Assembly: GCF_918797505.1 (NCBI RefSeq)
Contig: NC_092796.1
Location: 992,001-1,056,000, forward strand
DNA length: 64,000 nt
Direction of reading: 5' to 3'
DNA from: Bemisia tabaci
Taxonomy: Eukaryota; Arthropoda; Insecta; Hemiptera; Aleyrodidae
The position numbers were made by a program, and so were the translations under genes. The notes below the pieces were generated by a model. That model made no database searches. It saw only the letters and a program-made list of their open reading frames with translations, and was not told where the DNA came from. Shown one piece after another: positions 1 through 54,700 of the stretch. Every line of letters begins with the position of its first letter. The stretch's first letter is position 1.

Positions 1-770
1 TCCAACAATCTAAGGAAAAACTGAAGCAGGTGGAGAAGAAAAAAAAAACCCAAACAAAAAAACATACCTGTATCAGTGCTTCCCATATACAACCAGCAAC
101 AAAGAACACAGCTTTCACCGCACATATATCACTTGAACCCATGACCCGCGCGTGTAATGAAGGTTGCTCCATAAATTTTCGGAATATTTTCTATCCCGGG
201 AGCGGTAAGCATAATCTGAATAATGTACGGATTTAAGAAAGTTCATATCAACACTTCGGTTCAGCCAAGAAATTTTCGGTTCACCAACTCCAGACCACAT
301 TTCTCATTATAGGTTATGTTTACGCAGGGCTGCCATCAAATGGAACATACGAAATAGTGCGAGTCCTCCATAAAGATATTACGAAATTTCAAAGGAGTCA
401 CTCACTTTTTGTGTTATTCATTGGGTAAGTCGACAATTTTTTTCTTAAGACTACAAAGATTTACTCGTGTTCCGCGAAGACACCGAAATAATACTGTTAT
501 CGAAATCGAATTGAAGGATACAATTTTACTACAGTAACTTCCTGTGGCAGCCCTGTGCCCCGTGATTTGGCGGATAAAGAACAAAGACCAGTCGTGGTCG
601 TCGGGAATTCGGTGCCGGTAACAGTGAATGAATGTTCTGGAAAATCAGCTTGAAATTTTGAATCCTCGTGTTCTGGGAAACAAGTAATAAGTATGAAATT
701 TTGACTTCTCATATCCTCGTGAAGAATCTACGGCGTTCCATCCAGAATTCTTGTTTCAGACGGCTCCAAA
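1..770. other. Upstream flank and presumed 5' UTR/promoter of the transposase/DUF4806 locus
   Basis: No coding region is supported here. The stretch is ordinary mixed-composition sequence with short chance ORFs. By position, the last few tens of bases before 771 would be the 5' untranslated leader of the transcripts starting with ATGAGT. No clear TATA box was identified, and I could not recognise the left end of a transposon. Confidence 0.4.
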
Positions 771-782
771 ATGAGTGTAAGT
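771..782 (+). other. Six-base shared coding leader exon (ATGAGT) with splice donor
   Basis: ATGAGT at 771-776 is immediately followed by the strong donor GTAAGT at 777-782. It encodes Met-Ser and ends in phase 0. Two downstream acceptors are also in phase 0. The one at 2138 gives a protein starting MSGSARKRR, and the one at 5269 gives a protein starting MSDLKLWTL. Both starts look natural, and neither downstream exon has a convincing ATG of its own in a good context. The joining is inferred from splice signals and phase; no transcript is available. Confidence 0.6.
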
Positions 783-3700
783 ATCTATCTGACCACTTTC
801 TTATGATTTGATGTACATAGTCATTTACTTCTCATTTAGGCTTCCTACTTCTCCGGAAAGCAACCATGAAAATTTGCCATGACCAGGACGAATTTGAACA
901 ACCATACTAGTACAGCACGGAAGGAATTAGGAATGAAGCACACAACCAGATGCCTGATTTTGGAAATTGACTCTCACTCTTGTCACACGAAGAATATTCG
1001 TTACCTGTAAGAATGTCAGACACAAATTTTGCTTCTCAACATAGTTAGCGGCTCGTGGCGACAACGTCTTCAGCAGCCCGACCACATACTTTGACTTCCA
1101 TCGATATTGATAGAACTCAATTCCATTCCAATGGAATACCCCTTTGGAATGGAACTGAGTTCTATCAATAACGATGGAAGTCGAAGTCTGTGGTCGGGCT
1201 GCAGACCGGAAGTGTCTAATCTCCAGCTCAGGATCAGGAGACCAATTTTTGTTTCCGGCTCATGATGTGTGACCTTGTATTGATCTGCGATGAATGCCCG
1301 GAACATTATATGGAACATCTGACTCTAAACAAAATGTAGCTGTGTACGACATAGCTGAGAGGTCAATAAAATTTTTTCAGTGTTAGTTGCATGCACATTT
1401 TACACTTTATGCTACACTGAGGTATATTGCCCCATACGAATCAATAATTTGTTAGCCTTTCCCACATGAACTGTCTTCATTGACGTTGGCTTTGAGCTTC
1501 GTTCTTTTCTGTCAACGTATATTTAACTTCTTGTTATCAAAATATCTCACATGCCAATGCATTTGTAATCTAACGGTGAAGCACGAAATTGAAAGCACAT
1601 GGTCATCATTTGACGCGAGTGTGTACTATAGGGAAGATGTATGAAAGCAAGTGAGGGTTTACTGGCCTCAATTGCGAATATCAGCAAAGTTTTAGGTCAT
1701 AAGCATCCGATAGCCATGTCAGGAGCATTTTCTTCGAACATTTTACCAATGAAGAATGAAAGTTTTTAATTTGATGCTTACAAATCCTGAAAACCATGCT
1801 TAGCATCCAAATGATTATTTCCGTTTTAGACTGGTAAGCTTTCCCCTCAAATCATTTTAATTACAGTGCAATTTTTGACTGTTTTGAAACTTGTGATTGA
1901 CTATGTGCATACATACGCTCGATACATACATTTTTTAGTTTTCAACCTAACCCTCCTAGTATCTGCTGTTGTTTCATCAGTCCCATCAAGCCCCCCTGAT
2001 AAGTTCTTCGGTGACTGACTTCCAAGAGTCTGCAGCATGTCTGTTTTGCATTGATGTTTTGGGAAGCATATGAAGATGCTCTCTTGTGGGGAGGACCGTA
2101 TTTGTCCATCTATTCTCACCCAAGGTCATCATTTCAGGGGTCTGCACGGAAACGCCGTACTACTCGAGAGCCCCAAACAAGGCAGGGATTGCACAAGAAA
2201 TTGCGTAGAGATTTGCGTAGAGATGACACACCAGAAGACGATGCACTTTTAGCGCTGACTTCAAGTTTTTCATCCTGCACTGTTGATTCATCTGTAGAAG
2301 GGAAGCTATCCAATCTTAGTCATGATGAAATCACCGAGCAGCTCAGTTTGAGCGATTCTTCTAACCATGCTGCTCCTCTTTGCGCTAGTACTCCTTGTAA
2401 AAGTGGCAGTGAGTCTTATAACCCTAATCAAAGTAGCATCGTTGAAGGCATCTTTAATGAGTCATTTCCCGCAGCAAATTTGTCTATTCAACTTTTTACT
2501 GATGAAGCGGAAGTTCAGTGCACCGAAAGTTTAGAAAATTATGTTGTAATTGACAAGTCTCCAAATGATGCAGGCGAGTTTGATGCTCTAGGAGATCTTG
2601 ATGTTGTAAATTTTGACGTCCCATCGGATAACTATGTAGTGGCATCAGATGATGAAGATATTGATATGGGTGTTGACGAGCTTTTGAAATACTGCCAAGA
2701 GGAAGACGAAGATGCAGAGAGGCAGGTTTCAGAAATCACAAATTTCCTACGAGAATGGTCCGTAGAAAATTCCATAACCTTGTTAGCTTTATCAAGGCTT
2801 GCTGCAGGCTTGAAGCAGCTCCACCCAACTTGTTTCGGAAATCTTCCTGTTGATGGACGCACTATTATGAGAACTCCGGTACAAAAGTTAAATATAGTCA
2901 AGGTTCCACCAGGTGAATGTATACACTTAGGTGTTAGAAAACAATTGAACTTCATTGGCTCTATTCTCGAAGAAGAAGTTGAAGATTTAGGACTTCTCTT
3001 TAACATTGACGGCGTTAAATTGTACAAGCACACATCATTTTCACTCTACCCTATATTAATGATGGTGCAGTCTTGCAAGTCCCTAAAAAACAAGGTCTTC
3101 CCTGTTACCTTGTATTATGGTGAAGGCAGACCTCGTGATATGCGCCTATTTTTACAGCCTTTTATTGACGAAATGATTCAGCTCTTAACCTGCAATGATT
3201 TCCAATTAAAGGGAAGAGTAGTGAAAATATTCTTATTAGGCTTCTGTTGTGACACCCCTGCCCGTAGCGAAATTTTAGAAACTGTGGGCCATAGTGGGTT
3301 TTACTCCTGTTTCAGATGCGTGACGAGAGGTAAAAGCATAACACTTGAGCCGGGTAAAGGTAATGTTCGGGGAAAAAAAAGAAAACAAGGTGCAGGAACC
3401 AAGCGCAATTCAACCAAGAGAATTTTTCCAAGTGTTCAAGATCCTCCGAGAGAGGATATTAAATTTCGAAACAAAGAGTATCATGATCATCAACCTGCCA
3501 AGCGACCATTAACACCCTTAGTAGACCTGCCAGGCCTCCACTTTCCACGGTCTTTTATTCTGGATCCCATGCATTTGGTTTTCATTGGCGTCACAAAAAG
3601 TATCCTCTCTATTCTTTTCCTAGGCGGTCGACACATGCTGAGCCCTTCTTTACGACAGAAAGTCCAAAAAAAACTTGATGACTGTGCGCCTTATTTACCA

Positions 3701-6700
3701 TCTGATTTTCCTCGTAAACCAAGCAAGATAAGAAATGTCGGCACTTGCAAAGCAGCTGAGGCTCGAATTTATCTATTTTATCTGGGACCGGTAATTTTAA
3801 GAAATTCTGTTGACCGTAACAAATATATCCATTTCATGGAACTATCTGTTGCCATGAGAATATATCATAATGTTACTATGTGCGCAAATGCTGAAGCAAG
3901 GAAACTTGCGAAAGATCTGGTCCAGCATTTTGTTACTTCAGTCCCAGAGTTGTATGGAGAGGAGTACTCATCCCACAATATGCACTCTTTATACCATTTA
4001 CCCGACGACATCGAATGGTTCAAGGACAGTATCCCGGACTTTACTGCTAACGACATCAGTGCTTTCCCTCCAGAAAATTTCAATCAGGTCTTCCGTAGGT
4101 TTACACGAGGTTATGCTAAACCGCTTCAACAAAACTTCCGTCGGCTGGCAGAATTATTTGAAAGTGATTTCTGGCGGCAGAAGTACAAGAAGAGCATGGC
4201 TACCTCCGATAAGATTCAGTTTCAAAAGAATCATAGTGAAGGACCGTTACCATTGTTTCTAATGGGCCAACAGTACAAAAGTGCAATCTTCCCCTGCTTC
4301 TCGCTATCCACCAATCTAGCAGATTGCACCTGTGGAACAGAATGTGGAAAGGTCATCATCGCACTTAATTTTGTCGAAGATGCAGAGAACAATGAACAAT
4401 ATGTTGTCGGGATGAAATTCGAAGTTAAATCTGAATTTTTTGATGATCCTCTTCCCAAAAGCGGGAAACTAGGGATCTATAAGGTCTCTAAACTTTCAAG
4501 GTCGTTGGACAAATGGCCAGTATCGTCCATTACAACAAAGTATGTTAGATTGCCATACGTCAAAGATGACAGTCTTCCTGAACAGTACAGGAAAGAGGAA
4601 TATATTGTACTTCCTCTGCTACACTCAGAGGCTGGTCCCTCAACATCCTAAATAATCCTTTTCACGATTTCCCAGGTTTGTGAATTTTTTAGAAATGCTT
4701 TTATAGATTACATGCTTCCTCAGTCATTCCCTTGCATGAACAGAGTGGTAAGAGCTGGGAAAGAATTTGAGAATATCACAGTATTCTTAGCATAGCAACT
4801 TTTAAACATTGCAAGTAAATAGAGTAGCTTCCTGCTACCTAATACAAAGAGTTGAGCATCTTTCACCTCAATACACAATCTCTCTATAGATTAAAGTAAG
4901 GTATATTCTGTCTTTTCTGCTATTAATGACCAAGCTGCTCTGGGAAGTCCAAAACTTCTTAGTATTTTTTTTTCTTTCTATCGTGCTCTGAGGTGAAAGT
5001 CTTTCTAATTTTCCAGTAAAATGAGAAAGCAATAATGAAATTTCCATGATAAAAATGCTTACCCAAATAGAAGCAAAAAAGGATTTTACCCATGAAAAGT
5101 GTCAATGATAAGGACTTCTTGTGCTCTCATAAAGTCTGTGCTACAAATTTTTCTAAAAACTTGTCTGTTTGGAACGGAATATTCATCCCTCAAGTACAAT
5201 GTCTTAGCACCCACTTGCTGTATCTTTTTTTAAGTGTTGTTTGACTAAGAGATGTGAATGCTTTTCAGGACCTGAAATTGTGGACGCTCATAAAAATTTT
5301 GGATACAGGAGAATATGATGCTGTCCCCAATGTATGGATTACCGATAAGAAGGAGTGTTACTACCCTGACCCCGATAAAACGTCAACACAAATCATCGAG
5401 TCGCTGGCTGCCAAATGTGTGAAGCCACACACCACAGACCACGAATGGATTGTCTACAAAAAAATCGAGATCGTACAGTCAGATTATAGTAAGTTGTTGT
5501 TATCTGAAAAATTCATCCGCAAATAGCTGCTGCTGTCTATCGCTCTAAAAAAAAGAAGAAGAAAGGAATTGTAAAAATTCTGAAAAGTTTCAAGGGCGAT
5601 ACATGTTTTTAAAGCAATGCCAGATACACTTGTCAATGAGTCAATGATCCAAATAAATGAGTTGGTGACAGATGGGAACATTTGATTTTTCACTCAATTT
5701 AGTTTACAAAAACAGATATTTTAGACTTCTTGAAAGCTTAAGTAAGGTTTACGTATATGTTACGGTCAAAACCCGAAAACCGTAACATATATATTTCGAA
5801 ATTAAAATAAAAAAAATTATCTCCTAACTATCTTGTTTGCCGAATGACTCCTCGAATTCGCTGAAAAAATAATATACTGCTTTAGCACTTCAGATTTCAA
5901 AAATATGTCTGGTGATCCCAAGAAACTGCCTTTACTGCCCTTGCAGGTAACTTTACCTCCTATGAATGAAACTTCAACTGCGTGCGCAATCAAGGCTGTA
6001 TCTTATGATCACCAGACCCATTTTTGACATCCTAAGTAGTTAATCGGCATACCATTGTTTTCAGTGTTTTAGCGTGAAGTGAGAACATCGGGTGAATATT
6101 CACTTTTGCCACTTTTTCCGAAATTCAATTTTTCTCCCAGACAAATGCTTAAGGATACTATTTGTGGTCAGAAGAATAAAGGAATAAAGGCGGAAACGCT
6201 TTTTTCCAGAAAAACATCATATTTTAAAAAATTCTGATGCAAACATATCCATGGATGTAAAATTGCAGTACAACCCATTTGTAAGATAGGGATTAAGGAA
6301 GTTCATCCACATTGCTCTTGGCGTGTTAGCACGGATTCGAGAGAGTTGTTTTAGCTTTTTGCAACCCGTTCCAAATGAGACTTCATCCAAGTTTGCCATT
6401 ACTGAATGAATAAAAAAAAAAACACACTAAGAACTTGATATTACTCGTGAGGGTCAACATTAACTGGAGAAGGTTGTGGATGGAGCATCATTTGGAAATG
6501 GGTGGTGGCCTCAGGTCCCAAAAAACTAAAACAACCCTCGTTGAGTCTGTGTTAACCCTCACGAGTGATTGCATTGTTGACAGCATAATTTGGAAAGATT
6601 TGGCGGCCTTCAGCTGCTTAAAACTAATGTAGCCTTCTCAAGTCGGTGCTGATCCTCACAAGTAAAAACAAAGCTATTTAAAATAGCAAGGTTGGTCATA

Positions 6701-9700
6701 CTGCATAGCTCCCATCAACATTTATAGCGGACCCAAATTAAAGTGTCGCTCTATAATTGCATCCGTCAGAGACGTGTGTCCCTAAGGAGTCTTTCTTCAC
6801 TTATGGTGTTGGCATCAGAATGTCGAAATACAATATTTTCCTACGAAGAAAGTGTCTCTGTAGCTGTTTTTACATTGTTCCGATCATCAAAAGTGTCCTT
6901 AATAAGTTTTTCAGGAGAAAAATTCAATTATGGGAAAAGCAACTAAATTGAATATCTACCCAACACTGTAATAAATGCGACTCTATTTTTATCTGTAGGA
7001 CTGATCCCTCTATTTTCTTTAAATGCTTTAAATTTTCTCCCTTTTCTGTGCAGCCAAATTCAGTGTTTGTTGCGGCGACATGGTCCGCAAAACTAAGGAT
7101 AAGAGGCTTGCTGAAGAGAGTGCTGAAGAAATCGCGTTGAAAAAACGGAGAATCTCTAAAACTGCATCAGCATCTGCAGTGCCTTCATCACAACTCAAAC
7201 CACAAACAACCACAAACCAACAACCACAAACGACTCCGCTGAAAACCATTCACAAATCCAAGAAGAAGACCTCAAAAAGTCCGCCTCCAGCATCTAGTAA
7301 TTTTATCTCAGGAAGCGCAAATAATTCTTTCGAAGGAGGCGAACTTTGTCCATGTAAGAAGGACTCGCATGAATGTTGCTGCGCTGAGCCAACTACTTTA
7401 GAAAACATAGCGAAAAATCAGTGCCTGTTATCACGTAAGTTTTTATCTTATCTCAATGATTGTTAAAAAGGCATATGGGCACTGTAGCGTCCGTAACATT
7501 TTGCTGTTGCATCCATATCAAGAAGAAAATAGAAGTAACTACCATAGTTGATTTATAAATAATTTCATTTATACTATCAAGTAAGTGTTCCAAATTCACA
7601 GAGAGCAACACAACTTTTTTACAATTAGCATGAGCGCACAGATTGCAGTTCCAGAACAGAGATAAAAAATCAGAGCCATTTTTGGTGTAGTGTCCGTAAG
7701 TTATTTTCTCTTCTCAGACTCCAGAAAAAGAATAGGATTTTCTTGACCCTTTATAGAATTTATCTGAAACTCTAGTCTACAATTTTTTTCAATTGTTTTA
7801 CGAAAAACTTTGATTTTTATTCTTCATTTTCCAAGAGATAAAGCGCAGCCTCTGTAACAATAACCCCTGTCTGGTGAGTTGAATTTTCCACCATTTTTGT
7901 TTTCTTCTATCAGCACACATTGTTTAACAGTCCTGTTTGATTTTAGGTCGCCTGTTCAAATCCGAAGAAAAATCTGCCAAAAGGCATTCAGAAATAGTAA
8001 AGATAATTGATGCCCAGAAGCAAGTAACTAATACTACAGAATCTGCGGCCACTCCAGTAATTGAGCCAAGGCGTATAATCAAAAAGGAAGATGTGGATGC
8101 ATCATTGTTGAACGACTTCCCCCTCACAAAGAGCAAGAAAATTCGGGAATGGAATGAAAGATTGAAGTCTCAAGAAACTGCAGATAAATTAGTTAGTGCG
8201 ATCTTTTCTAGTCCTGATTTTTGGCTTTGTTAGTATTAAGTTCACAGTCTTTTTTTTTTTTTTTTTTTTTTATTTTGCAAAATTAGTCTTAATTTTTGGG
8301 TCATTCCATGTCAACTCAACGAGGTTTTGAACCTTGACCTCTTGGATTATGTTCAAACTTGGTGTGCTGTAAGTTCTTATCGAAAAAAAAAAAAAAATAT
8401 TCCCAAAATTTTAGGTCATTTGATCGCTTCGTCAAATTTATGTGGAATTTCAAAGTTTGCAAAAAATTGGGTTTTTTTATGGCCAGTAAAACTTTGAACG
8501 GTTGTTACTTTTCAACGGTTCATCGGTAAAACTAGAAATTGGTCTTGCTTTAAAGCTCAGAGCTTCTTCTTTTCAAAAAAAAAAAAAAGTGAAAAAACCG
8601 GTTTGGAAAATTTTGAATTTTCAAATTTGAATTTTTTGAAAAGGGCATTTTTTAAAAATTTGATTTTCTTTGTAAGTGACCCTTACATAATCTTAAAGCA
8701 TTTCCCAAAGTTTCAGTGTGGGCCGCCAAGCTTCTCCCGAGTTACAGCAACAAACGTACCGTAATCCCACTTAAAAAGCATCATACCTACATACAGGGTT
8801 TCCCAGACCACCCGCACTGCCCAAGATCAAGACCCTCTCCCCTTTACCTCCAAAGGGGGGCTGGAGGTGTTGCGAGGCCACGAAATTCGGATTTCTTGGG
8901 GTAGATTCTCTACCTCACCTTGTGGTCCCCGACTTCGTCCGGCCCAAATCAATCGAGAAAAAGGTCTGGTACGGACGCTCTGGGACACCCTGTATGTAAG
9001 GCATGATGCCTCTTAAGTGGGATTACGGTACGTTTGTTGCTGTAACTCAGGAACTGCTTGGCGGCCCACAATGAAACTTTGGGAAATGCTGAAAGATTAT
9101 GGAAGGGTCACCTTCAAAGAAAATCCAATTTTTAAAAAATGCCCTTTTTGAAAAATTTAAATTTGCAAATTCAAAATTTTCCAAAAAATTTCCATAACTT
9201 TGTTTTCAATTTTTTTTTTAAAAAAAAAAAAAAAAGAAGAAGCTCTAAGCTTCCAAACAAGACCCATTTAAAGTTTTTCCGATGAACCGTTGAAAGGTAA
9301 CAGCCGTTCAAAGTTTTAAGTATTGATCATAAAAAAAAAACTCAATTTTTTGCAAACTTCAAAATTTCATTAAAAATTATCGGAGCGACCAAATGACCTA
9401 AAATTTGGGAAATATTTCTTTTTAATAGGAACTCACAGCACACCAAGTTTGAACATGATCCGAGAGGTCAAGGTTCAAAACCTTGTTGAGTTGACATGCA
9501 ATGACCCTTTTGTTGATAACTTCAATTAATTTTGCGACCAAAGCTTACGAGATCGTGAACAATGGTTTCCTTGTTGGAATTTAGGGTATCAAAATTCATT
9601 GCTACCACTCACCTAATATCACCAACAGAACATTTGCACTCCTTTTTTTTTTTTTTTTTTTTTTATCAATTCAAAGGTAAGGGAAATACTATTTGAAATA

Positions 9701-12700
9701 CTGCTAATATATTTTTACAACGTGGTTTTGCTAAAAATACCTCAATAACTGTGCAGCTAACTACGTTTTAAAATTTCCTGAAATGTAAACTCCAAGTGAA
9801 ATTTTTACAGGATTTGGGTTTTTTTTTAATGTCAGGTCGAACTGGCCATGAAGTGTTTCCTGTAAAAAAAAAAAGAATAAAAATCGAAGTCGAAGCTCTA
9901 GTGTCAACTGAGGTTTTCTTTAAGCTTTAAGGCCCCACGTAATCTCAAACTGTAGAACTTGTTTTTTCAAAATCATAAGAAGTGCACTGGATACAACTGG
10001 TCATCGAATTCCCCCCCCCCCCCTCCCAGATTAAAGTTCTCTAAAGGAATGCTTGTCTTCCTCTCTCTGTCTCTTACAGATTGCTACCATAATCACAGAG
10101 AAAGTCACAAAGAAGTCCTTGTACCCTAATTTTACCGGACGGAATGTCATTAGCGTACTGATTGGGGCGGAAAAGGCCGGCTTTTTCACATGGGACGGCA
10201 AACCAAGAAACAAAATCAAGAAATTCCCATTCAAGAAATTGCAGTTTTATCAGATAATACTTGGTAAGATCCCTCTTTATTATCTTCTTTACAAATAGTC
10301 ACAATTCGTTTCTTTTTGTTTCTCATTTCACTGTGAGATGGCAGTTACGTGAAATGAAATTACTGTTGTACTATGGTGCAGTAGCTGGTCGAAAAACAGT
10401 GATTGCCACTTTTAGGGTAAGTCAGGAAAAAGTTCTTTGAATGTGAGTGTGTGAGTCATCTGTGAAGTAGTCCACCCTTTGACAAATATTTTTTATCAGA
10501 CTCATATAATTACACAAAATCTCATGTTTTCTCAAAAAGTCAGGGAATTATATTATCAACTTCTGTGACAACCGTGGAGTCAATGTTGTCTGGTAAAATT
10601 ACCAGACAAACTGGTAATAGTACCAGGAAGCTTGTAGTAGCTCATCATAATAACCTAGTATAGTACCTTAATAGTAAGTGTGTAGCAATCAGGTAGTAAA
10701 ACATGATTTGTATTTGCTTGGTAAGCAAGTGGACTGCGTTTAGCAGAAAGGAACCAAGCAACATCCGCTAATTTAATTTTTACAAGTTAACATTTGTGCA
10801 AATTCTTTTGAAAATTTGATGGAATTTGCTTTGTACCATGCAGAAAAATCACTAAAATTTGCAAAATAAAATCCGCACAACAATTTTCTTAGAAAAAAAA
10901 AAAAAAAAATTTCCCAATTACATTTGGCAGTACCTGATGTGGCTTTGTTCCTCTCTGCTTTATGCAGTCCAAACACGAATCATCTATTTTTTGGTAAATT
11001 TTTTGTCGTGTTTTTCTATCAATTTTAGAACTTAAGTTTAATGTCAAGCAACTTTAAGCTCACAATCATATTCGAAGGAAAAATTTTGCTGGCAAAAAAT
11101 TGTATTTCCGAATCCGTTTTTCCTTTGCTTGAAACTTTTTCATGGTTGTAAGAAAGGCTGCACTCTCAACTTTTTCTTTTCTTTCTTCTTTTTTTTTTTT
11201 TAGAAATCGTGAAGTACCACCATCACCCCACCCCAATTGATGAAGCAAATCTTAAATATTCCTTGGGCCAATGGTTCTCGCAAACAGCGAATAAAATGGA
11301 AAAACTCCTATCACAGTAAGTTTTCGTTTCGCTATCTCTTTTTTCGGTGTTAGTTGTTCTCTACACAGTTGAAGAATTTCAAGCTCTTTTGCTAAACGTA
11401 TTAGATGGCGGGGGGGGGGGGGGGGGGGTAATTTTACACTTGCAATTGGTCTTTTTCTGTTATCAGAGGACACTTCTCTACCATCGCCTCATTGTTCCTT
11501 TTCTTTCCAGAGCATTAATGCATTCCTTTCTATTACCTAAGTGAAAGGGGCATTATAACCTGAATTTTATTTCTTTTCTTTCTTAATTTATTTAACCGAA
11601 GGGAACCATCTCAATTGCAGTGTTTTCAAACTTGTTGAACTTTATCTTTACCTCAAATATACCTGGAAGTTCAAATATTTCAGGTTTTCCTACCGAAGTA
11701 TTGTTAATTTTAAAAGGAAACTATCAGGTGATAAATTTCATCACATGAACATGCATTTTTTTTTTTTTTTTCCTTTAAGCATGAAAGTGCCACAAGTTTG
11801 GAAACACTGTAATTGAGTTGTTTCCCTTCTGTTAAGCACGGTCCAAATGACACTCCTGAAGAAATTGAGTTATCCATTGAACCAAAAGAATTCAATTTTA
11901 ATATTGAAGGAATATAGATATGTTGAACATTAAAAGAGAGATTAAGGAAATTGTATTGCACAGTACTGGGTTAGACGAAGTTAAGGCTTGTTTGGCCCAA
12001 ATATCATTAGGTTAGGTTATTTCTATAACAGCACACAAATCAGGTGGCCCCACAACTATTGTCATACTAGAAAGAGAGTGTTAGTTGGACCGCGTTAAAC
12101 AGAAAGGAACCAAGCCACATCAGCTATTGCCAAATTTAATTGGGCAATTTAATTTTTACATGAAAACGGTTGTGCGGATATTCGTGCAAATTTCTAAAAA
12201 ATGTAAGCGCCTCGTTAAACTTGGCAATAGCTGATGTGGCTTGGTTCCTTTCTGTTTAACTCAGTCCAGTTAGTCAATTTATTTAAAAACATTCAGCATC
12301 TTGGGCTGTCAACGTCTATAGTAAGAATTTGGAAGATGGGTGTAAAAATTTAGATTTTTAAATTAAGGGAGGCAAAGAGTTTCAGAAGTTTGGGTGTATT
12401 TATGTGAGGGTGTGTATATGTATGTATGTATGTCTTTAACCTAAAATTTATTGTTTTAAAGGACATCTGTGACTGTGGATTCATCTCAATCAGAAATTCC
12501 ATCTTCTGAAGAATCAGACGCAGGAGAAAATCAGTACGTAACATTATCATCTTTATTAGTGTAATTTTTTCATTGTGTGTCAAAGGATACCACAAATTCC
12601 AGGGCCAAAAGCCGTATGAGATGCTAAGAGCCTAAAGTGGATAACTACACTTTAAGTTCATAAATTGACTACTGACAATACATCTTTTGCACAGCATGGT

Positions 12701-13449
12701 TAAAAAATTTTTTTATTGGCCAATTGCCTTATAGCTAATTTTTTTAAAAAAATCATTCTTCTCATCACAGATTTCATTGCCTCATTTTGGTTTTCATTTA
12801 TTATGTTTAGAAATTTCATATGAGGAAGATTTCTTTCATTTCAAAGGGCACCGCAATTTTGGACATGTAAAATTGGCGTGTTTCTACCCTTCCACATCGT
12901 TGCCCATTTTAACTGACTTGAAATGCATTTTTCCAAGTCTAATCATCCTGAAAAATCCAAGGAAAACGGAGAATGTGGTAGACTCAATGTGAATCTGATA
13001 AACTCACCTGTACTACCTGGAATTTCATTTTATTTCCTTCTTGAAAGAAAAAAAAATCGAACTTCTTACCGCTTGAAAAGACAAGATAAGAAAAGAATCA
13101 GACCAAACGGGGTGCTCCTTGACCCAAGTCTTAATAGTCTTCCCATAAGAAGCACATGCCAGAAGATTTGCCGTATATATTTTTAGTAACTATGATTCCT
13201 TGAGTATTCATTTTATATTTATGTTTAGAATTGTAACTACAATTCCACCCATAATCTGGGTGATAATCCCTAGTGACACACAGAATTTTAATCCGCGGTA
13301 TCTGTTACAGGAACCCTGATCCTGAGAATGAAAATGCTGAAAACACTGGAAATGATGATGCCCAGTTGAATCAAAATGCTGAAAATACTGCAAATGATGT
13401 TGATGCCCAGTTGAATCAATCAAGTGCAGAACATGATGATCTACACTAA
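771..13449 (+). CDS. DUF4806-domain protein, eight exons
   Basis: The exons are 771-776, 5269-5488, 7054-7434, 7947-8191, 10080-10263, 11204-11315, 12462-12533 and 13311-13449. All have GT/AG borders and compatible phases, totalling 1359 bases and 452 residues. The N-terminus (MSDLKLWTLIKILDTGEYDA then VPNVWI) matches the VP-x-x-W opening typical of DUF4806 proteins. Exon 3 carries a basic segment (KKRR), a Gln/Thr/Lys-rich linker and a Cys cluster (C174, C176, C183-C185). Residues about 260-378 form the DUF4806 region: it opens FPLTKSKKIREW, has FTGRNV and FTWDGKPRNKIKK in the middle, and closes with LGQWFSQTANKMEKLL. The C-terminus is acidic and Asn-rich, with two related 15-17 residue repeats ending DAQLNQ. 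The function of DUF4806 is unknown to me. The family is strongly amplified in aphids and relatives and is often near transposase genes. Introns contain several inverted-repeat elements. The first exon is the least certain part; the phases of exons 2-8 are very convincing. Confidence 0.75.
1074..1202. repeat. Short palindromic foldback element in intron 1
   Basis: The left half (CAGCCCGACCACA, then TGACTTCCATCG, ATTGATAGAACTCA, TTCCATTCCA) returns in inverted order on the right, ending GTGGTCGGGCTG at 1201. The centre lies around 1135. The roughly 130-bp size and near-complete self-complementarity fit a MITE or foldback remnant. Confidence 0.7.
2138..4651 (+). CDS. CACTA/tnp2-like transposase-derived protein (main exon)
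   Basis: This long uninterrupted exon begins after the acceptor TTTCAG at 2132-2137 and is probably joined to ATGAGT at 771-776, giving about 839 residues. An unspliced start at 2051/2054 would add an unlikely 28-29 residue leader. The protein starts with a basic segment (RKRRTTREPQTRQG), followed by an acidic, Ser-rich region. The conserved core comes next: FLREWSVENSITLLALSRL near residue 205, NIDG near 293, GFCCDTPARSEIL near 374 followed by HSGFYSCFRC, ILDPMHLVFIGVTKSIL near 480, and AEARIYLFYLGP near 543. I recognise this layout from large insect and cnidarian families annotated as transposase-domain proteins related to tnp2/Transposase_21. The acidic residues in NIDG, FCCDTPAR and AAEAR are candidate DDE catalytic residues (inference). 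The frame is fully open with a normal TAA stop, so the copy is recent or under selection. It lies in the first intron of the DUF4806 transcript on the same strand. Confidence 0.75.
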   Translation, partial: GSARKRRTTREPQTRQGLHKKLRRDLRRDDTPEDDALLALTSSFSSCTVDSSVEGKLSNLSHDEITEQLSLSDSSNHAAPLCASTPCKSGSESYNPNQSSIVEGIFNESFPAANLSIQLFTDEAEVQCTESLENYVVIDKSPNDAGEFDALGDLDVVNFDVPSDNYVVASDDEDIDMGVDELLKYCQEEDEDAERQVSEITNFLREWSVENSITLLALSRLAAGLKQLHPTCFGNLPVDGRTIMRTPVQKLNIVKVPPGECIHLGVRKQLNFIGSILEEEVEDLGLLFNIDGVKLYKHTSFSLYPILMMVQSCKSLKNKVFPVTLYYGEGRPRDMRLFLQPFIDEMIQLLTCNDFQLKGRVVKIFLLGFCCDTPARSEILETVGHSGFYSCFRCVTRGKSITLEPGKGNVRGKKRKQGAGTKRNSTKRIFPSVQDPPREDIKFRNKEYHDHQPAKRPLTPLVDLPGLHFPRSFILDPMHLVFIGVTKSILSILFLGGRHMLSPSLRQKVQKKLDDCAPYLPSDFPRKPSKIRNVGTCKAAEARIYLFYLGPVILRNSVDRNKYIHFMELSVAMRIYHNVTMCANAEARKLAKDLVQHFVTSVPELYGEEYSSHNMHSLYHLPDDIEWFKDSIPDFTANDISAFPPENFNQVFRRFTRGYAKPLQQNFRRLAELFESDFWRQKYKKSMATSDKIQFQKNHSEGPLPLFLMGQQYKSAIFPCFSLSTNLADCTCGTECGKVIIALNFVEDAENNEQYVVGMKFEVKSEFFDDPLPKSGKLGIYKVSKLSRSLDKWPVSSITTKYVRLPYVKDDSLPEQYRKEEYIVLPLLHSEAGPSTS
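5754..5790. repeat. Perfect short hairpin
   Basis: Twelve-base arms ATATGTTACGGT and ACCGTAACATAT are separated by a 12-base loop. It is located in intron 2 of the DUF4806 transcript. Function is unknown. Confidence 0.6.
5885..6046. repeat. MITE-like element with imperfect TIRs
   Basis: The outer sequences contain TCAAAAATATGTCTGGTGATC on the left and its approximate inverse GATCACCAGACCCATTTTTG on the right, with about 90 bases between the arms. There is no coding capacity. It lies within an intron. Confidence 0.6.
6441..6570. repeat. Inverted-repeat element (ACTCGTGAGGGT termini)
   Basis: ACTCGTGAGGGTCAACATTAAC on the left is matched by the inverse GTTAACCCTCACGAGT on the right. A degenerate third copy of the motif (GATCCTCACAAGT) occurs near 6652-6664, so the true right end could be there. 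Confidence 0.5.
8298..9507. repeat. 1.2-kb foldback element in intron 4 of the DUF4806 gene
   Basis: The outer ends are GGGTCATTCCATGTCAACTC and its approximate inverse ending AATGACCC. Landmarks such as CAAACTTGGTGTGCTG (left) and CAGCACACCAAGTTTG (right) sit at mirror positions around a centre near 8902, so the arms align without large indels over roughly 490 bases each. The central part is bounded by CAGGGT/ACCCTG (about 8797-8992) and may be a separate smaller element sitting in the loop. There are no plausible ORFs. Confidence 0.85.
10730..10971. repeat. MITE family A, copy 1 (TGGAC ... GGAAC termini)
   Basis: Its left end, TGGACTGCGTTTAGCAGAAA then GGAACCAAGC, mirrors its right end, TGTTCCTCTCTGCTTTATGC then AGTCCA. 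It shares internal sequence (TTTAATTTTTACAAGT, TGTGCAAATT) with the other family A copies. Confidence 0.7.
12086..12268. mobile_element. MITE family A, copy 2, with target duplication
   Basis: About 48-bp TIRs start TGGACCGCGTTAAACAGAAA and end TTCTGTTTAACTCAGTCCA. GTTAGT flanks both ends (12080-12085 and 12269-12274), consistent with a target-site duplication. At 183 bp this is the cleanest and shortest copy of the family in the window. Confidence 0.8.
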
Positions 13450-13536
13450 TTTTGGAACTTTAAGCCTAGAATATTTTTCTTTTCTCAAATTTTTTTACAG
13501 GTTCCTTTTTCTAAAGGTTTTTGTAGGTGCTCACAG

Positions 13537-14340
13537 GTAAATTCTTTCCTTAAGAGCTTATTTTTCCATAATATTTTGTGAATTTTGATATTTAGTTGGA
13601 CATGCCAATTTCTTTCCTGATATTATGCCTGCTTGCCCCCACGCCGACTTTTTCTGCCAGTTTGTGGCTACTTGTTCCTCACTAATAAATTTTCCGGTCA
13701 ATTTGACAAGGGTAGGAGTAGGGTTAAAGGGCTTTTGCCTTTTAGTTTTGATGACTTCTGACATGTTAGTTCCATCTCGTGTTTCTTAATTATATAGCTA
13801 ATTTATTCAGTCCCTTTAAGACTGTTTTTGCCACTCGTGGCTAATTGATGCTCAATAGTAAATTTTTTCCTTAAGAGCTTATTTTTCCATAATACTTTGT
13901 GAATTTTGATATTTAGTTGGACATGCCAATTTCTTTCCTGATATTATGCCTGCTTGCCCCCACGCCGACTTTTTCTGCCAGTTTGTGGCTACTTGTTCCT
14001 CACTAATAAATTTTCCGGTCAATTTGACAAGGGTAGGAGTAGGGTTAAAGGGCTTTTGCCTTTTAGTTTTGATGACTTCTGACATGTTAGTTCCATCTCG
14101 TGTTTCTTAATTTATATAGCTAATTTATTCAGTCCCTTTAAGACTGTTTTTGCCACTCGTGGCTAATTGATGCTCAATAGTAAATTTTTTCCTTAAGAGC
14201 TTATTTTTCCATAATACTTTGTGAATTTTGATATTTAGTTGGACATGCCAATTTCTTTCCTGATATTATGGCTGCTTGCCCCCACGCCGACTTTTTCTGC
14301 CAGTTTGTGGCTACTTGTTCCTCACTAGGAAATTTTCCTT
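13537..14340. repeat. 321-bp tandem repeat, about 2.5 copies, just after the DUF4806 stop codon
   Basis: Units start at 13537, 13858 and 14180 (GTAAATTNTTTCCTTAAGAG). The first two are nearly identical, and the third diverges after about 160 bases. Each full unit contains a 68-codon minus-strand ORF beginning MSEVIKTKRQKPF, differing at one residue between copies. I do not recognise it. The AATAAA at 13684 could serve as a polyadenylation signal for the upstream gene. A related fragment (CATAATATTTTGTTTATTG) recurs near 14360 and again near 15575. Confidence 0.85.
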
Positions 14341-14549
14341 AAAGGGCTTTTTTTTCATAATATTTTGTTTATTGTGATGTTATTTAGTCATGTTGATTTC
14401 TTGATATGCCACTAATATTACTGATATAGCTGATTGCCCTCATGCGGGGTTTTGTTCTTTTCTCCGTCTTAATTATTTTTGGTATCTTTGATGCCCCTTT
14501 TTCCCTTTATTTTTGCCTGATAGGCAGTTTCTTTTCTCATATTGTTGTT

Positions 14550-14889
14550 GAGGTGTGGTCAGCTAAGTTGACGGTTGTTTACTTCCGGTTTGGAATTGCC
14601 AACGACGAATTTGGGCGTCTGAACAGAGCGGCGTTCGCAACTATACACATAATTGAAAACATCAGTCTCATCATCAGTCACTTATCAGTTATGATTTGAG
14701 ACTTTTTTGTGGTTGTGATTTCTGTGTGGCTAAAAATTAAAGTGTAACAAGGTCTGAAAGTATTAAAAAACTTAAGTAAGCTTGTGTTCTCGGTTCTGAG
14801 GTAGTCGGATGCCTTCATGTTGATGTTAGTGACGCGAAAACACCTGCAAACCGAAAGTAAACAACCGTCAACTTAGCTGACGACACCTC
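14550..14889. mobile_element. MITE with 43-bp near-perfect TIRs
   Basis: The left arm 14550-14592 (GAGGTGTGGTCAGCTAAGTT ...) is the inverse of the right arm 14847-14889 (... AACTTAGCTGACGACACCTC) with only two mismatches. The 85-codon ORF inside looks non-specific and shows no transposase motif. Confidence 0.85.
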
Positions 14890-15036
14890 TATCTTGTAGA
14901 CCAATGTTATTTTGGAGTTTCAAAGTTTATTTAATAGAGTTATGTTGGCCTGGTGACGGCCTCTTTTTGTATTATGTCACCTCTTCTTTTCATTCAACTG
15001 ACAAATTAGTTTTTAGGCATTATGAAGGTTTCCTTC

Positions 15037-15513
15037 AATGGGCCTGTTGCAAACTTTTGCTAGAGCAGAATGAAGAGTTCGCTCCTATAGATAATGCCTC
15101 AAAAATCACGATGAGCGCATCAGCAAAGTCTGAAATGCACTCATAAATTCACAATCTGCGTAAGAAATTTGCGTTATTTTTAGCTTCCCGCTTCAAAAAC
15201 GATACTACTGTACAGGTGAATATTTTGTTAGAGGAGTCGCTCCATTGTCGGCAATATTCATCATGGCCGACGCTTGCGCACGGTCATGATGAGTTTTGCC
15301 GCCAATGGAACGACTCCTCCAACAAAATGTTCACCTGTACCGTAGTATCGTTTTCGAAGCGAGAAGCTCAAAAAACCACAAATTTCTTACGCAGATTGTG
15401 AAGTTATGAGTGCATATCAGACTTTGCCAATGCACTCATCGTGATTTTTGAGGCATTATCTGTAAGAACCAACTCTTAGTTTTGCTCTAGCAAAAGTTTG
15501 CAACAGGCCCATT
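15037..15513. repeat. 477-bp near-perfect palindrome
   Basis: The sequence from AATGGGCCTGTTGC (15037) is mirrored to the end GCAACAGGCCCATT (15513). The arms are about 235 bases, and the loop around 15275 is roughly a dozen bases. Scattered substitutions show the arms are not freshly copied. Apparent ORFs on both strands are shadows of the palindrome. Confidence 0.85.
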
Positions 15514-16470
15514 CTCATTTGTGATTTCTTCACTGATATACCACTGATAGTAGTTCCTCAAAGGGCTTTTTTTTTCATAATATTTTGTTTATTGTGATGT
15601 TATTCAGTCATGTTGATTTCTTGATATACCACTGATAGAACTGATATTGTTGTATCTTGTGGACCAATGTTATTTTGGGGTTTCAAAGTTTATTTACTTA
15701 TTTTTTCTTCATTATGAATTGTTTTTCTCTTTGACATTAGTTGTCTTTTCAAGAATTTGTTTCTCTTTCTTATCTTCAGTATTTCTCAAATTCATTTTTG
15801 GCTTGCCCTATTAAGGAATAAACTATACTTACTTCATTCCAATTCTTCTTTTTAAATTATTTGCATCTCGTGTATGACAAATTTAAGTGGATGAAGTTTA
15901 TCAGTTTTATTTGTGTGTTAGTCCTTTGGTTTTGGAAGTGGTTTTGTCCATTGCTACATTTCAATTTTTCCAAAAAAGTTTTGATTTTGTACAGGAAAAC
16001 TGTTTGGTCAACTCTTGCGTAAATTTCAGTGATTTTTCCAACTCGTGTGCAAGAAATTCACTGATATTAATCCCTTAAAGATTGGCGCAAAGTTTTCTGT
16101 AGAAAATGAAAATGTTCCACCATCGCAATGGAGAAAACCACTTTTCTAAACCATAGGCCTCGTAGTGAACATCATATAACATTCATGTAAACTGTTATAT
16201 AAATGATTCATACGCTCTTTACTCATTGAGTATTTGAGTGACTTACATAACATTTAATCAAACTGTTATGTAAATGATCCGAGTGACCTTCACATAACCC
16301 TATCTTATTTTCATCCGTAAAGGATAGCAACTGGTTTATATAATGGACGCATAGTTTTTTAGTGTACATTGTTAATGAGCCTTTTATATAATACTGAATA
16401 TAATTTTTATATAAAATATTTTTTAAAGTAATTGTAACGTATATTATATACATTATATACTTTGCTTGAA
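15514..16470. other. AT-rich stretch without a recognised gene
   Basis: It contains a second copy of the CATAATATTTTGTTTATTG motif near 15575 and the sequence TTGTGGACCAATGTTATTTT near 15660, which also occurs near 14895. These suggest a larger duplicated unit interrupted by the two inverted-repeat elements. The rest is AT-rich with short ORFs only. Confidence 0.5.
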
Positions 16471-16978
16471 TTAGGTTATATAACTAGTTTACTAAGGGTT
16501 ACATAAAAAGCTGATTAATAATGTAAACTTTTAACTAAAAAAATTTACATCCATTATATACGCAACGGGTTTTTTTCAGCTTGTGGTTACTTACAGTTTA
16601 TACTTTAACAAAAAAAAATTTATATAACTCTGCTACTAGGAGTTATATAACTTCTTTACTAAGGGTTAATTAAAAAGCTGATCAATAATGTAAACTTTTA
16701 ACTAAAAAAATTTACATCCATTATATACTCAATGAATTGTCTTTACCCTGTGGTTATTTACAGTTCATACTTTTAAAAAAAATAATTTTATATAACTCTG
16801 CTACTAGGAGTTATATAACTTCTTTACTAAGGGTTAATTAAAGAGCTGATCAATAATGTAAACTTTTAACTAAAAAAATTTACATCCATTATATACGCAA
16901 TGAATTGTCTTTAGCTTGTGGTTATTTACAGTTTATACTTTTAAAAAAATTAATTTTATATAACTCTGCTACTAGGGC
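16471..16978. repeat. AT-rich tandem array, unit about 167 bp, three copies
   Basis: The marker GCTGATNAATAATGTAAAC recurs at 16510, 16678 and 16845. Each unit also contains TTTACATCCATTATATAC and TTATATAACTCTGCTACTAG. The array ends about 55 bases before the large foldback. Confidence 0.85.
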
Positions 16979-17034
16979 CTTGTTCTCCGCATTTTTGCAC
17001 TCTGTTCATCTTTCTCTTTGAAGGTTACATAACA

Positions 17035-19721
17035 AAGGGTATCCCGGTTAAGCATGTCAAAATGCCCTTGTGAACGGATTTTTATTTTAACCATTTTAAG
17101 TCATCAAGGGTGTCCTAAAACTTAGGTTTTGGGGAATTTTAGCCCCCCAATCCCCTTCGCCCCCCCTCAGACCCCAAAAAACCGCTTTTTGGGGCTATTT
17201 TTGACTATGCTAACGTCTTTTCCTTATAACTTTCGTAATTTTCGATGGAATTGAACCAAAATTTGTCAGAATCTACATCAACTAGCTTAGTTTTTGTAGG
17301 AAAAAATTCATTATCATCGGATAATATTTTAGCTTCTAAAAAAATTCGTACAATTTTGAAAAAAAAATCATTTTTTCCCTTTTTCGCGCTAGGTGACGTA
17401 TGGAAACGAGGACACAAACAAAAATTGTCTCTTTTCTTAAGTTATACATCCAATAAGATACAGAAAAAATTTCGTGTTGATTGGAGTGGTGCGCCATACT
17501 TGAAAACGCAATTTTCTAACCTCAAAACGGCCAAAATGCCACCATAGCCTCCTTTGATGACTAGGCGTGGAGAAATATGTAGAGAGAAACATCCGGTTTT
17601 ATCGTCTCACACCTCTTAAGTGATCCACTTAAGTACCTTGAGCCAAAATTTCGAGTTGATCAGAGTGGTGCGCAACACCCAAGCACGCAATTTTCTAACC
17701 TCAAAACGGTCAAATTGCCCATTTCGGCACCCATTATAACTCCGTGTCAAAAAATAAGAAGAGGGACATCCGATATTCTTGTCCTACCTCATAAATTAGA
17801 CACATAAGTACATTTAGTCGAAATTTCGTGTCGATCAGAGTGGTGCGCAACACCCAAGCACGCAATTTTCTAACGTCAAAACGGCCAAATTGCCCATTTC
17901 GGCTGATTTCGGCACCCATTATCAATCCGTGTCAAAAAATAAGAAGAGGGACATCCGATATTATCGTCCTACCTCATAAATTAGACACTTAAGTACATTT
18001 AATCGAAATTTCGTGTCGATCAGAGTGGTGCGCAACACCCAAGCACGCAATTTCCTAACCTCAAAACGGCCAAATTGCCATTTCGGCTAATTTCGGAACC
18101 CATTATCACTCAGTGTCAAAAAATAAGAAGAGGGACATCCGATATTGTCGTCCTACCTCATAAATTAGACCCTTAAGTACATTTAGTCGAAATTTCGTGT
18201 CAATCAGAGTGGTGCGTGACACCGGAATACGCCGTTTTCTAACCTGAAACCTCCCGAAATTCCCATTTTGGCATTCATTATCACTGTATGTCAGCGATGA
18301 GCCCGCTTGGAAAGTGCATGATGCACATTGCAAAGTTCATTTTGGCACCCTACCGCGTAGCAGACCCGATCACACAGCGAAACCTCTGAACTCCCAGGAA
18401 TTATATGACAGTAGGGACGCTCGCTTATCCCCCATGTAGAAACGTTCCCTCCTCTAAACTTCAATAATACGTAGTAGTGCACTGAGTACTGGCAAATTCT
18501 AGAAACTAAATTAACAAGGAATCGGCGTGTTCGGATGTTGCGCACCGCTCTGATCGACTCGAAATTTCGACTAAATGTACTTAAGGGTCTAATTTATGAG
18601 GTAGGACGACAATATCGGATGTCCCTCTTCTTATTTTTTGACACTGAGTGATAATGGGTTCCGAAATTAGCCGAAATGGCAATTTGGCCGTTTTGAGGTT
18701 AGGAAATTGCGTGCTTGGGTGTTGCGCACCACTCTGATCGACACGAAATTTCGATTAAATGTACTTAAGTGTCTAATTTATGAGGTAGGACGATAATATC
18801 GGATGTCCCTCTTCTTATTTTTTGACACGGATTGATAATGGGTGCCGAAATCAGCCGAAATGGGCAATTTGGCCGTTTTGACGTTAGAAAATTGCGTGCT
18901 TGGGTGTTGCGCACCACTCTGATCGACACGAAATTTCGACTAAATGTACTTATGTGTCTAATTTATGAGGTAGGACAAGAATATCGGATGTCCCTCTTCT
19001 TATTTTTTGACACGGAGTTATAATGGGTGCCGAAATGGGCAATTTGACCGTTTTGAGGTTAGAAAATTGCGTGCTTGGGTGTTGCGCACCACTCTGATCA
19101 ACTCGAAATTTTGGCTCAAGGTACTTAAGTGGATCACTTAAGAGGTGAGACGATAAAACCGGATGTTTCTCTCTACATATTTCTCCACGCCTAGTCATCA
19201 AAGGAGGCTATGGTGGCATTTTGGCCGTTTTGAGGTTAGAAAATTGCGTTTTCAAGTATGGCGCACCACTCCAATCAACACGAAATTTTTTCTGTATCTT
19301 ATTGGATGTATAACTTAAGAAAAGAGACAATTTTTGTTTGTGTCCTCGTTTCCATACGTCACCTAGCGCGAAAAAAGGGAAAAAATGATTTTTTTTCAAA
19401 ATTGTACGAATTTTTTTAGAAGCTAAAATATTATCCGATGATAATGAATTTTTTCCTACAAAAACTAAGCTAGTTGATGTAGATTCTGACAAATTTTGGT
19501 TCAATTCCATCGAAAATTACGAAAGTTATAAGGAAAAGACGTTAGCATAGTCAAAAATAGCCCAAAAAGCGGTTTTTTGGGGTCTGAGGGGGGGGCGAAG
19601 GGGATTGGGGGGCTAAAATTCCCCAAAACCTAAGTTTTAGGACACCCTTGATGACTTAAAATGGTTAAAATAAAAATCCGTTCACAAGGGCATTTTGACA
19701 TGCTTATCCCGGGATACCCTT
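17035..19721. repeat. 2.7-kb foldback: 1.18-kb inverted arms built from about 180-bp units
   Basis: The left arm 17035-18215 and right arm 18541-19721 mirror each other almost base for base. Landmarks sum to 36756, so there are no net indels. The ends are AAGGGTATCCC and GGGATACCCTT. Inside each arm a unit carrying CAGAGTGGTGCGCAACACCC repeats about five times (near 17481, 17661, 17836, 18021 and 18205), with spacings of 175-185 bases. The loop, 18216-18540, is unrelated sequence. Mirror-image 100-codon and 63-codon ORFs arise from the repeat and show no known domain, so I do not treat them as genes. Confidence 0.9.
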
Positions 19722-51779: not shown

Positions 51780-54700
51780 TATAGTAAAATACAACAAGCT
51801 ATAGCTTGTATTTGACTATCTTATGAATGTAATTAGATTTTCGAACAAAACCCATCTTTAGAGACCCTCTTCTAGAAACTTATAAACTTTACAAACGGCT
51901 CCAGGATAATAGAGAATTCGCAGGTGTCTGAAATTTGATGAATTTCGTGTTTAAGTAAAATACTGAGTGAACTGACACGAGGATAAATACTGTGAAATCA
52001 GCTCTTTGAGCACGTTCAGATGAAGCAATAAAAAATCTGCATGCAAATTCTCCATTCTCATGAAGTTAAAAGAAACAAAAATAAATCAACTTTTGGTTGA
52101 AATTATTATACTTATTTATTTTTTTCTTAGTTTACCCGATCCACCTTCCTTTGAGGGGAAGTTGGCTGTCAACGACGCTCTGAATGGCGCGACAAAGTTG
52201 TTCGAAAACGAGGTCCATGCGCCGGAATCCCTGGTCGTCTACAACGGCGTGCTGTATACAGGACTCGCGGATGGCCGGGTAGTCGCCGTGAAAAATGACA
52301 CGCTCTATACCATCGCAAACCTCGGGCGGCCGTGCGGTAAGTCTCTGACTTCCTCTATTTCTAAAGCCTTGTCTACACGGAAAATGTCAACAAAAACTAA
52401 AAAAACAAAAGTTTGGTCCAAACTGCAGAACCGCGCGGGGAAAAAAGTCCTGTGTGGAAACCTGGGTGCGTCAATTCAGCCCAGTTTATCAAACTACGTT
52501 TTGGGTTCTCGTAGCCGAACACTTGGTTCAAATACGCATTGCGCAAAAGAGACATTGGTTTTTGATCACACGAACCGAGAATTTGATAAGCTAAATAGTT
52601 TAATCAATATAGAAAAGCGAGCTTCTGTCTCACATTACTGAATTCGAATTATTTTTTCACACTTCATGGAGGAGCCGAGAAGGAACTCAATGTTGGTTTT
52701 GACAAGAAATACCATCATGAAACTTTACAGTAATGATCTCAAGTTAACACCCGTGTTGTTGTTGGTTTTTTTTTTAATATTTTTTTTACTCATGATTTTT
52801 CCCCGAATTCCGAAACGCGATTTATTATTAATGGAATATGAATAAATTAATTTTTTCCAGATCAAATATGGGATAAAACGAAATGCGGTAGAGCATTGGG
52901 CGTCGACATGGACAAACACGGAAACTTGTTTGCCATTGATTGTTACCACGGTATATACAAAGTGAATACAACAACAGGTAAGAATTCTCATTGCAGCCAG
53001 CTTATTATCTTCAAATTCTTTCTTCTCTTATGATAAATGTCATCAAATACAAGAGATCAAAATAAATTATTGAAATCTCATTTTCAAACTCAAAAATCAT
53101 TTGCATTTTCCTTCAATTTATGTCATCACTTACTAATTTTACATTTTTTGGTAATAATCGAATTTATTTACGTTTCAGGGGACTTCTCTCTGATTATCCC
53201 TCTGGATAAGCCCATTGCCGGACAAATGCCACTTTTACCGAATAATATTGCCGTTGGCCCTGACGAAGCCATCTACTGGAGCGATACGTCGACGAAATTC
53301 CCTCTACACAAACTTTTATTCATCTGGGTTGGCGACAAATCCGGAAGGTATTCCTCAAATAATCTTATATTATCTGAGTAAAAAAATGTAAAAATGTCCT
53401 GAACAGCACTAGTATAATATTGAGCATTTTCATGCATTTTCCTTCACCAGCATTTTTCCAAATAACATAATGCCTTATTCGAACATTCCAAATATCAACT
53501 CAAAAGGATGAATTTAACATTTAGTTCTCGACTTCGAAGACAGTCTATAAAATTACTGGAAAAAGTTTAATTAGACTGGAAAACAACTCATGTAAGACTC
53601 AACTTGAGCTTCACTGAAAGAAAAGTTACGGGCTACATAACGTAATTATTGTCCTTTCCTGGCTCAGAGACCGAAAGTTCCGGGCGCTGGAGCCGCAGCT
53701 TCGACTGCTCAGGGTGCGAAAACCGTAACTGTCGGCCTCTGAGCCTGGAACAGGACATTATATCTATTTAGCCCGTAAATACGGCTTGTAGGAGAAAAGC
53801 ACCAGTACCATGATTACCTCTCAAAATCTGTACGATCTGTAAATCATGTTTAATTTCAAGCGATATGACAAGTTTTTTGGTCTTTTTTCATGACTGCGTA
53901 AAACTCCACAACTCTACTTAACCTATGTCCGAAAAATCCCCTAATTTCAGGCTCATTCGAAGCAACCAAACGACGGGTGAAAGTGAAGTCCTGATGGAGG
54001 ATCTCGCCTTCTCCAATGGGGTGTACGTATCGCGTGATGGTTCATACGTAGCAGTCGTTGAAACGATCAAAAGTCGTGTCCACAGGTAATCCATTTAAAA
54101 ATGCACTCAACAACTCGTATAAAAGTGTGCCCATCTTTTTATCAGCGCCCATACGTCATTGATTAAAGAAAGATTGCATCGTTTTTACTGATGTAACCCC
54201 TTTGCAGGGGAGATAGGGGGCGAAGCCGAGAAATGAAAACTGATTTTTTACGGAATGCAGAATTGTGAAACCACTCGTGAGATGCCACTTTTACAAACTT
54301 TCACCCGATGTTTATGACAAGGATGTTGTTGATTAAAGATAAATTAATACAATAAAGTTGATACAATAAGTCGATAAAATAAATCATACATTGATAAATA
54401 AAAACAATTGATGTAATCATAATCAGATGTTTACGAGATATATAATAAATCCTGGCTAATAAGATTTACGTGTGTATGGAAGCAAGAATGAGGGGAGGGC
54501 AATGCGATTAAGGAAATTGAAAAAAGAAAGAAAGAACAAGAACAGATTTTATAATTTAATCAATCTTCGATGGGTATAGACTTCCTATGAATCGATGTTT
54601 AAGCCATTCATTTTTTATGAATTGATTTTCAATTTATTGATTGGCGCGTGACAAAATCCTGGTTGAAGATCGGGAAAAAGCATGTTGGGTAACAGATCAC

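Follow-up and report, generated by a model that had tools for sequence, protein, structure and literature searches.

A two-gene DNA transposon of Bemisia tabaci with a transposase gene nested in a DUF4806 gene and a candidate shared leader exon

The window analyzed here, a 64,000-nucleotide stretch of the genome of the whitefly Bemisia tabaci (the one species sampled), carries a Transposase_21/tnp2-type transposase gene (Pfam PF02992) and a gene for a DUF4806 protein (PF16064), both on the forward (+) strand and both preceded by a two-codon candidate leader exon, ATG AGT (Met-Ser; positions 771 to 776, + strand), which is followed by the donor GTAAGT (777 to 782). The transposase body, stop codon included, occupies positions 2138 to 4651, and the further exons of the DUF4806 gene are located at 5269 to 5488 (exon 2, coding for the N-terminal WTLIKI..DAVPNVW domain), 7054 to 7434 (exon 3), 7947 to 8191 (exon 4), 10080 to 10263 (exon 5, the core of the DUF4806/BEN-like domain), 11204 to 11315 (exon 6), 12462 to 12533 (exon 7), and 13311 to 13449 (exon 8, the last coding exon). 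The phase-0 acceptor for the transposase ends at 2137 (atttcag/GGGTCT, with the slash at the exon boundary) and that for DUF4806 exon 2 ends at 5268 (cttttcag/GACCTG). Joined to positions 2138 to 4651, the leader yields a transposase of 839 amino acids with the N-terminus MSGSARKRR (MSGSARKRRTTREP...); joined to the seven further exons, it yields a protein of 452 amino acids with the N-terminus MSDLKLWTL and a TAA stop codon ending at 13449. This 8-exon model agrees, residue by residue, with the database protein P0015 (Bemisia tabaci, “isoform X2” in UniRef); P0016 (isoform X3) is 27 residues shorter than P0015. The splice junctions of both products are predicted from the sequence and database gene models. 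An earlier, sequence-only reading of this DNA had proposed that ATGAGT/GTAAGT splices in phase 0 either to 2138 or to 5269, that both products thereby acquire Met-Ser N-termini, and that the transposase sits within an intron of the second product. The first two proposals agree with the sequence, and the exon maps of the window and of a second copy, on C2, place the transposase within the first DUF4806 intron.

Both genes are enclosed by the ends of a single element of 21,539 bp, whose left end is at -4561 (C4:987439), 4.56 kb before the window, and whose right end is at 16977, so its portion within the window extends from position 1 to 16977 (+ strand). The 11-bp terminal inverted repeat (TIR) CCCTAGTAGCA is found at both ends, the right one at 16967 to 16977 on the minus strand, and the flanks read ..taaCC and CCttgt.., with the target-site duplication (TSD) CC at 16978 to 16979 and its partner at -4563/-4562, outside the window. 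Six other copies were delimited. The C2 copy (25456107 to 25478469) is 22,363 bp long with the TSD GA, and the C8 copy (42138323 to 42154866) is 16,544 bp long with the TSD AA. The copies at C4:14.9M and C10:20.0M are 99.7% identical over a main alignment of 13.4 kb, with more matching blocks towards the left end; the two copies share the points, left and right, where the matches break off, and there CCCTAGTAGCA inverted repeats are found, with the TSD AT in one copy and TT in the other. Two copies of 10,896 bp each, C3:57047217-57058112 and C9:16836996-16847891, show 100% identity across the two segments compared (2,112 and 4,584 bp) and have the ends CCCAGATAGCACA and CCCAGAAAGCACA and different TSDs (AT and GA). 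Thus, the TIR is CCCTAGTAGCA in the window copy and four others and CCCAGA(T/A)AGCACA in the C3/C9 pair, and the TSD is 2 bp long in all seven delimited copies (CC, GA, AA, AT, TT, AT, and GA), which span 10.9 to 22.4 kb. Both genes lie between the ends in every one of the seven, the second gene of the C10 copy being assigned from its 99.7% alignment to the C4 copy. Judging from their sequences, the two near-identical pairs look like recent transpositions of one unit, and the C3/C9 pair appears to be a sign of very recent transposition in the whitefly. The two genes therefore almost certainly belong to one mobile unit and, as far as structure goes, the earlier proposal of a two-product transposon is borne out by the window element and six other copies.

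The right end of the window element is reiterated: TIR-like ends are found at 16641, 16809, and 16977, 168 bp apart, and positions 16642 to 16977 consist of a 168-bp repeat in two copies that share 96% identity and both end in the TIR motif. The C8 copy has such ends 203 bp apart, at 18475 and 18678 in the orientation of the element, and its inner TIR, like the outer one, is adjacent to AA.

The leader pattern (ATG, a Ser codon, and GTRAG) was scanned for in 11 stretches totaling 237.6 kb on both strands (475,200 strand-bases). It was found five times, in each case upstream of, and on the same strand as, a related transposase gene, and at all five sites phase-0 acceptors are present for both products (the acceptor of the C2 transposase was judged by eye); such an arrangement is far beyond chance. 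The identical 12-mer ATGAGTGTAAGT occurs at three of these sites, in the window and its paralogs on C2 and C8, and the other two leaders read ATGTCT/GTAAGA (C1:34.5M) and ATGTCG/GTGAGT (C3:29.18M). By sequence, the shared Met-Ser leader is common to 5 of the 11 elements read and is not universal. The nested layout has been mapped by exon for the window and C2; at C4:14.9M the transposase has its own ATG, a Met-Ser leader for the DUF4806 gene was sought and not found, and of the mini-exon candidates MV, MK, and MA the first was taken as a guess. Just 5' of the window leader, TTGTTTCAG at 751 to 759 could be an acceptor that would turn the leader into a 17-nucleotide internal exon; no similar acceptor is seen in the 20 bases immediately 5' of the leaders in C2 and C8.

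The association of the two genes extends across the 610-Mb assembly. Queried with the window transposase, the assembly yielded 72 matches, merged into 53 loci. A search with P0015 (E values up to 1) gave 35 matches at 18 loci, 11 of which are linked to a transposase, that is, lie no more than 15 kb downstream of it on the same strand, and the PF16064 profile, used as an independent query (E values up to 10), gave 17 matches, 13 of them linked; all these match counts are lower bounds. The two sets of loci overlap only at C4:21.75M, which has no transposase, so that 24 of the 34 distinct DUF4806 loci are linked and 10 are not, the loosest link being at C10:20.6M, 10.2 kb from a transposase fragment. 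Assuming an even genomic spread, the chance of linkage is 6.5e-4 per locus, and the binomial tails are 3e-31 for P0015 and 9e-39 for PF16064. The spacing between the two genes is equal in three twin pairs (3,275/3,275, 3,283/3,283, and 4,899/4,898 bp) and unequal in a fourth (4,624/6,942 bp). The suggestion that a transposon accounts for the amplification of DUF4806 genes is thereby supported within the scope of Bemisia. Among the top-ranked matches in the open-licence PMC literature, no report of a link between DUF4806 and transposons was found.

The window transposase matches Transposase_21 with an E value of 3.6e-4 and 20.2 bits, under the curated Pfam cut-off of 28.6 bits. Residues D319, G320, D400, C419, and C422 (P0001 numbering) are invariant in all 10 aligned rows; by eye, the W of motif I is replaced by Y and the last L of box A by I in the window protein. 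A scan with the 10-row alignment found no relatives in collections of viral contigs and genome contigs. Between the window and C2, silent sites are saturated and the transposase protein is conserved (pS 0.82, pN 0.26). The motif ATTAAA at 4890 to 4895 (+ strand) is a possible poly(A) signal of the transposase message, by motif match only. Two copies of a transposase relative with equal match scores lie 45 kb apart on the minus strand at C8:20458736-20460577 and C8:20503501-20505342, perhaps as a result of local duplication.

The DUF4806 protein of the window matches PF16064 with an E value of 4e-4 and 21.1 bits, under the 25-bit cut-off; the exon of the C3/C9 sister element (loci C3:57.05M and C9:16.84M) reaches 25.4 bits, above the cut-off, in a match to part of the profile. 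Wherever traced, intron phases agree between this gene and its copies in C2 and at C4:14.9M. Here, too, silent sites are saturated and the protein is conserved between the window and C2 (pS 0.83, pN 0.44). In a search with a DUF4806 alignment that scored the 7,994 candidates sharing most words, four proteins were found, all from Bemisia. The best match for a low-confidence structural model of the DUF4806 protein is to BEN DNA-binding domains, such as those of Insensitive, Bsg25A, and BANP, at 6 to 15% sequence identity; a sequence search of the PDB gave two ribosomal matches only (E values of 0.7 to 0.9), and the structure prediction for P0018 was poor (mean predicted local distance difference test score, pLDDT, of 46.7). 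In the excerpts of the DUF4806 literature that were consulted, the assigned function is limited to a BEN-type label. An intronless copy of exons 3 to 7 is located at C4:21748462-21749402 (minus strand), with 73.6% identity to the spliced window gene and small gaps, and residues 21 to 273 of P0018 (a DUF4806 protein in UniRef) derive from it. No transposase was detected near this copy. Since it has no introns, DUF4806 RNA was probably once spliced and reverse-copied; the copy stops short of the leader junction. Another candidate for a processed copy across that junction, C3:39.95M, was rejected, as it holds part of exon 2 only, up to the end of the exon.

Copies of a TTATATAA palindrome are dense in the outer 1.2 kb at either end of the element. 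In the right subterminal region of the window (15778 to 16977), which carries a TTATATAA array, TATATAA occurs 25 times; the two ends contain 39 and 25 copies vs 6 in the 19.1-kb interior, and the corresponding numbers are 28, 21, and 7 in C2 and 28, 9, and 1 in C8. Dinucleotide shuffles of the same ends gave means of 1 to 3 copies and a maximum of 10. At the right end of C8, 9 copies were observed vs a shuffle maximum of 6, and TTATATAA was found 3 times vs 3. Arrays of the palindrome TTATATAA are thus present at the ends of three delimited elements, those of the window, C2, and C8. Some TATATAA copies stem from internal repeats, spaced at approximately 150 or 300 bp on the left and at 168 bp on the right, and the words of the palindrome overlap, so that these counts are not independent. 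The ends of the C4:14.9M copy have no TATATAA array and instead contain TCTTAAAA, a weaker motif, 6 and 4 times. In plant CACTA elements, according to part of a published account (PMC2613891), terminal motifs are specific to the family.

In its termini, its duplication, and the conserved residues of its transposase, the element matches the TRC (Transposon Related to CACTA) group (DeMarco et al. 2006, PMC1636069). In the section of that paper on TRC elements, these have a CCC core at their ends and a 2-bp TSD, as here, and the first 11 bases of the Tribolium TIR, CCCTAGTAGCACC..., are those of the window element. The TRC transposases described there have a Transposase_21 domain with conserved DG, CxxC, and paired Asp residues about 80 apart; the window transposase is alike in the DG, CxxC, and paired Asp and falls below the Pfam cut-off. 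TRC elements are also reported from Aedes, and for SmTRC1 of Schistosoma several spliced products are reported. SmTRC1 differs in length (about 4.5 kb, vs 10.9 to 22.4 kb here), and, beyond Transposase_21, its proteins were reported to lack detectable conservation, whereas the second product here comes from a many-copy DUF4806 gene; DUF4806 is absent from the Results and discussion section on TRC elements. The layout also resembles that of maize En/Spm, as given in part of PMC2613891: a tnp2-type open reading frame lies in the first intron of another gene, which has multiple exons; exons are common to both messages; and subterminal repeats are found at both ends. In maize, neither of the two proteins is dispensable, and the subterminal arrays are bound by TNPA. 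However, the second protein here is DUF4806/BEN-like rather than TNPA, the termini are CCCTAG or CCCAGA rather than CACTA, and the TSD is 2 bp in all seven copies rather than 3 bp. The element is not CACTA proper, because both the CACTA core and the 3-bp duplication are lacking.

Taken together, these features make it very probable that the 21.5-kb element is a DNA transposon of autonomous type that belongs to the TRC group and has an En/Spm-like two-gene unit. Transcription would start upstream of 771; splicing from 776 to 2138 would yield the transposase, and skipping from 776 to 5269 would yield the DUF4806 protein. By analogy with TNPA, the latter could bind the subterminal TTATATAA repeats through its modeled BEN-like domain and help the transposase to pair or cut the ends, or else control the promoter of the element. 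Such binding is reasonably likely, and we infer the accessory role from the layout.

An unlikely alternative to that role is that the element carries DUF4806 as cargo or as a regulator with a different job, such as an anti-silencing or chromatin function, and that the protein is dispensable for transposition. Against it, the gene has been kept beside the transposase across diverged subfamilies, at 24 loci; the one pair tested (window vs C2) indicates purifying selection; and the element has the subterminal arrays that a TNPA-like protein would require.

Somewhat less probable still is that, within a single transposon, each gene has a promoter and first exon of its own, the common leader being coincidental or serving one product only. 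Several observations weigh against a common leader. The transposase frame has its own ATG in 6 of the 11 elements (C4:14.9M, C10:20.0M by its match to P0005, C4:58.8M, C6, C10:3.06M, and C3:57.05M); in C6 and C10:3.06M, DUF4806 exon 2 likewise carries an in-frame ATG of its own; and the database proteins P0001 and P0003 begin at internal Met codons. On the other side, P0002, the C2 transposase, has the N-terminus MSG, and P0019, the C8 DUF4806 protein, begins with MSEISSE where the genomic exon opens with GAAATC after the acceptor; in neither case is Met-Ser encoded beside the exon, and it is therefore borrowed from elsewhere. An in-frame stop codon is found at the transposase acceptor in C3 (29.18M), and in the scanned sequence the leader 12-mer is confined to these loci. 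The proposal that one leader serves two proteins is supported, by sequence and gene models, for the window and four other elements, and does not extend to the other six.

That a transposase element was inserted into the first intron of a host DUF4806 gene, to which the common leader would belong, would explain why the transposase sits in intron 1, but is barely credible and was rejected because the inverted repeats enclose both genes, rather than the transposase, in all seven delimited copies; in addition, the same gene order recurs at 24 places and the near-identical pairs moved as one unit.

The window contains several other repeats. A fold-back insertion with nested inverted repeats (arms of 87 to 208 nucleotides) lies within DUF4806 intron 4 at 8298 to 9507, and direct repeats 321 bp apart (98% identity over 490 bp) follow the DUF4806 stop codon at 13528 to 14338. 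Large inverted repeats, with arms of 634 and 568 nucleotides that are 98% and 96% complementary, extend from 17043 to 19712, starting 66 bp past the right end of the element. Farther downstream, an open frame at 52024 to 52641 presumably resembles an exon of an adipocyte plasma membrane-associated/strictosidine-synthase-like protein.

A broader possibility, held tentatively and at somewhat less than even chances, is that DUF4806 is the animal TNPA: most DUF4806 genes, in Hydra, beetles, fish, and hemipterans, would be the second genes of TRC elements or their stranded or domesticated descendants, and such transposon proteins may be the origin of some BEN-type chromatin proteins of the host. 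The available part of a table of Hydra domains, where DUF4806 is among the high-count domains along with transposase domains, agrees with this idea without testing it. If the proposed role is correct, it would provide a function for DUF4806, an amplified animal domain, and an animal transposon group would be using, with another DNA-binding protein, the two-gene, intron-nested design known from maize En/Spm. It would also define a predicted protein-DNA pair, DUF4806 and the TTATATAA subterminal repeats, in a family for which the two copies of the 10.9-kb element signal recent activity, and would give annotators grounds to class many DUF4806 genes as transposon genes.
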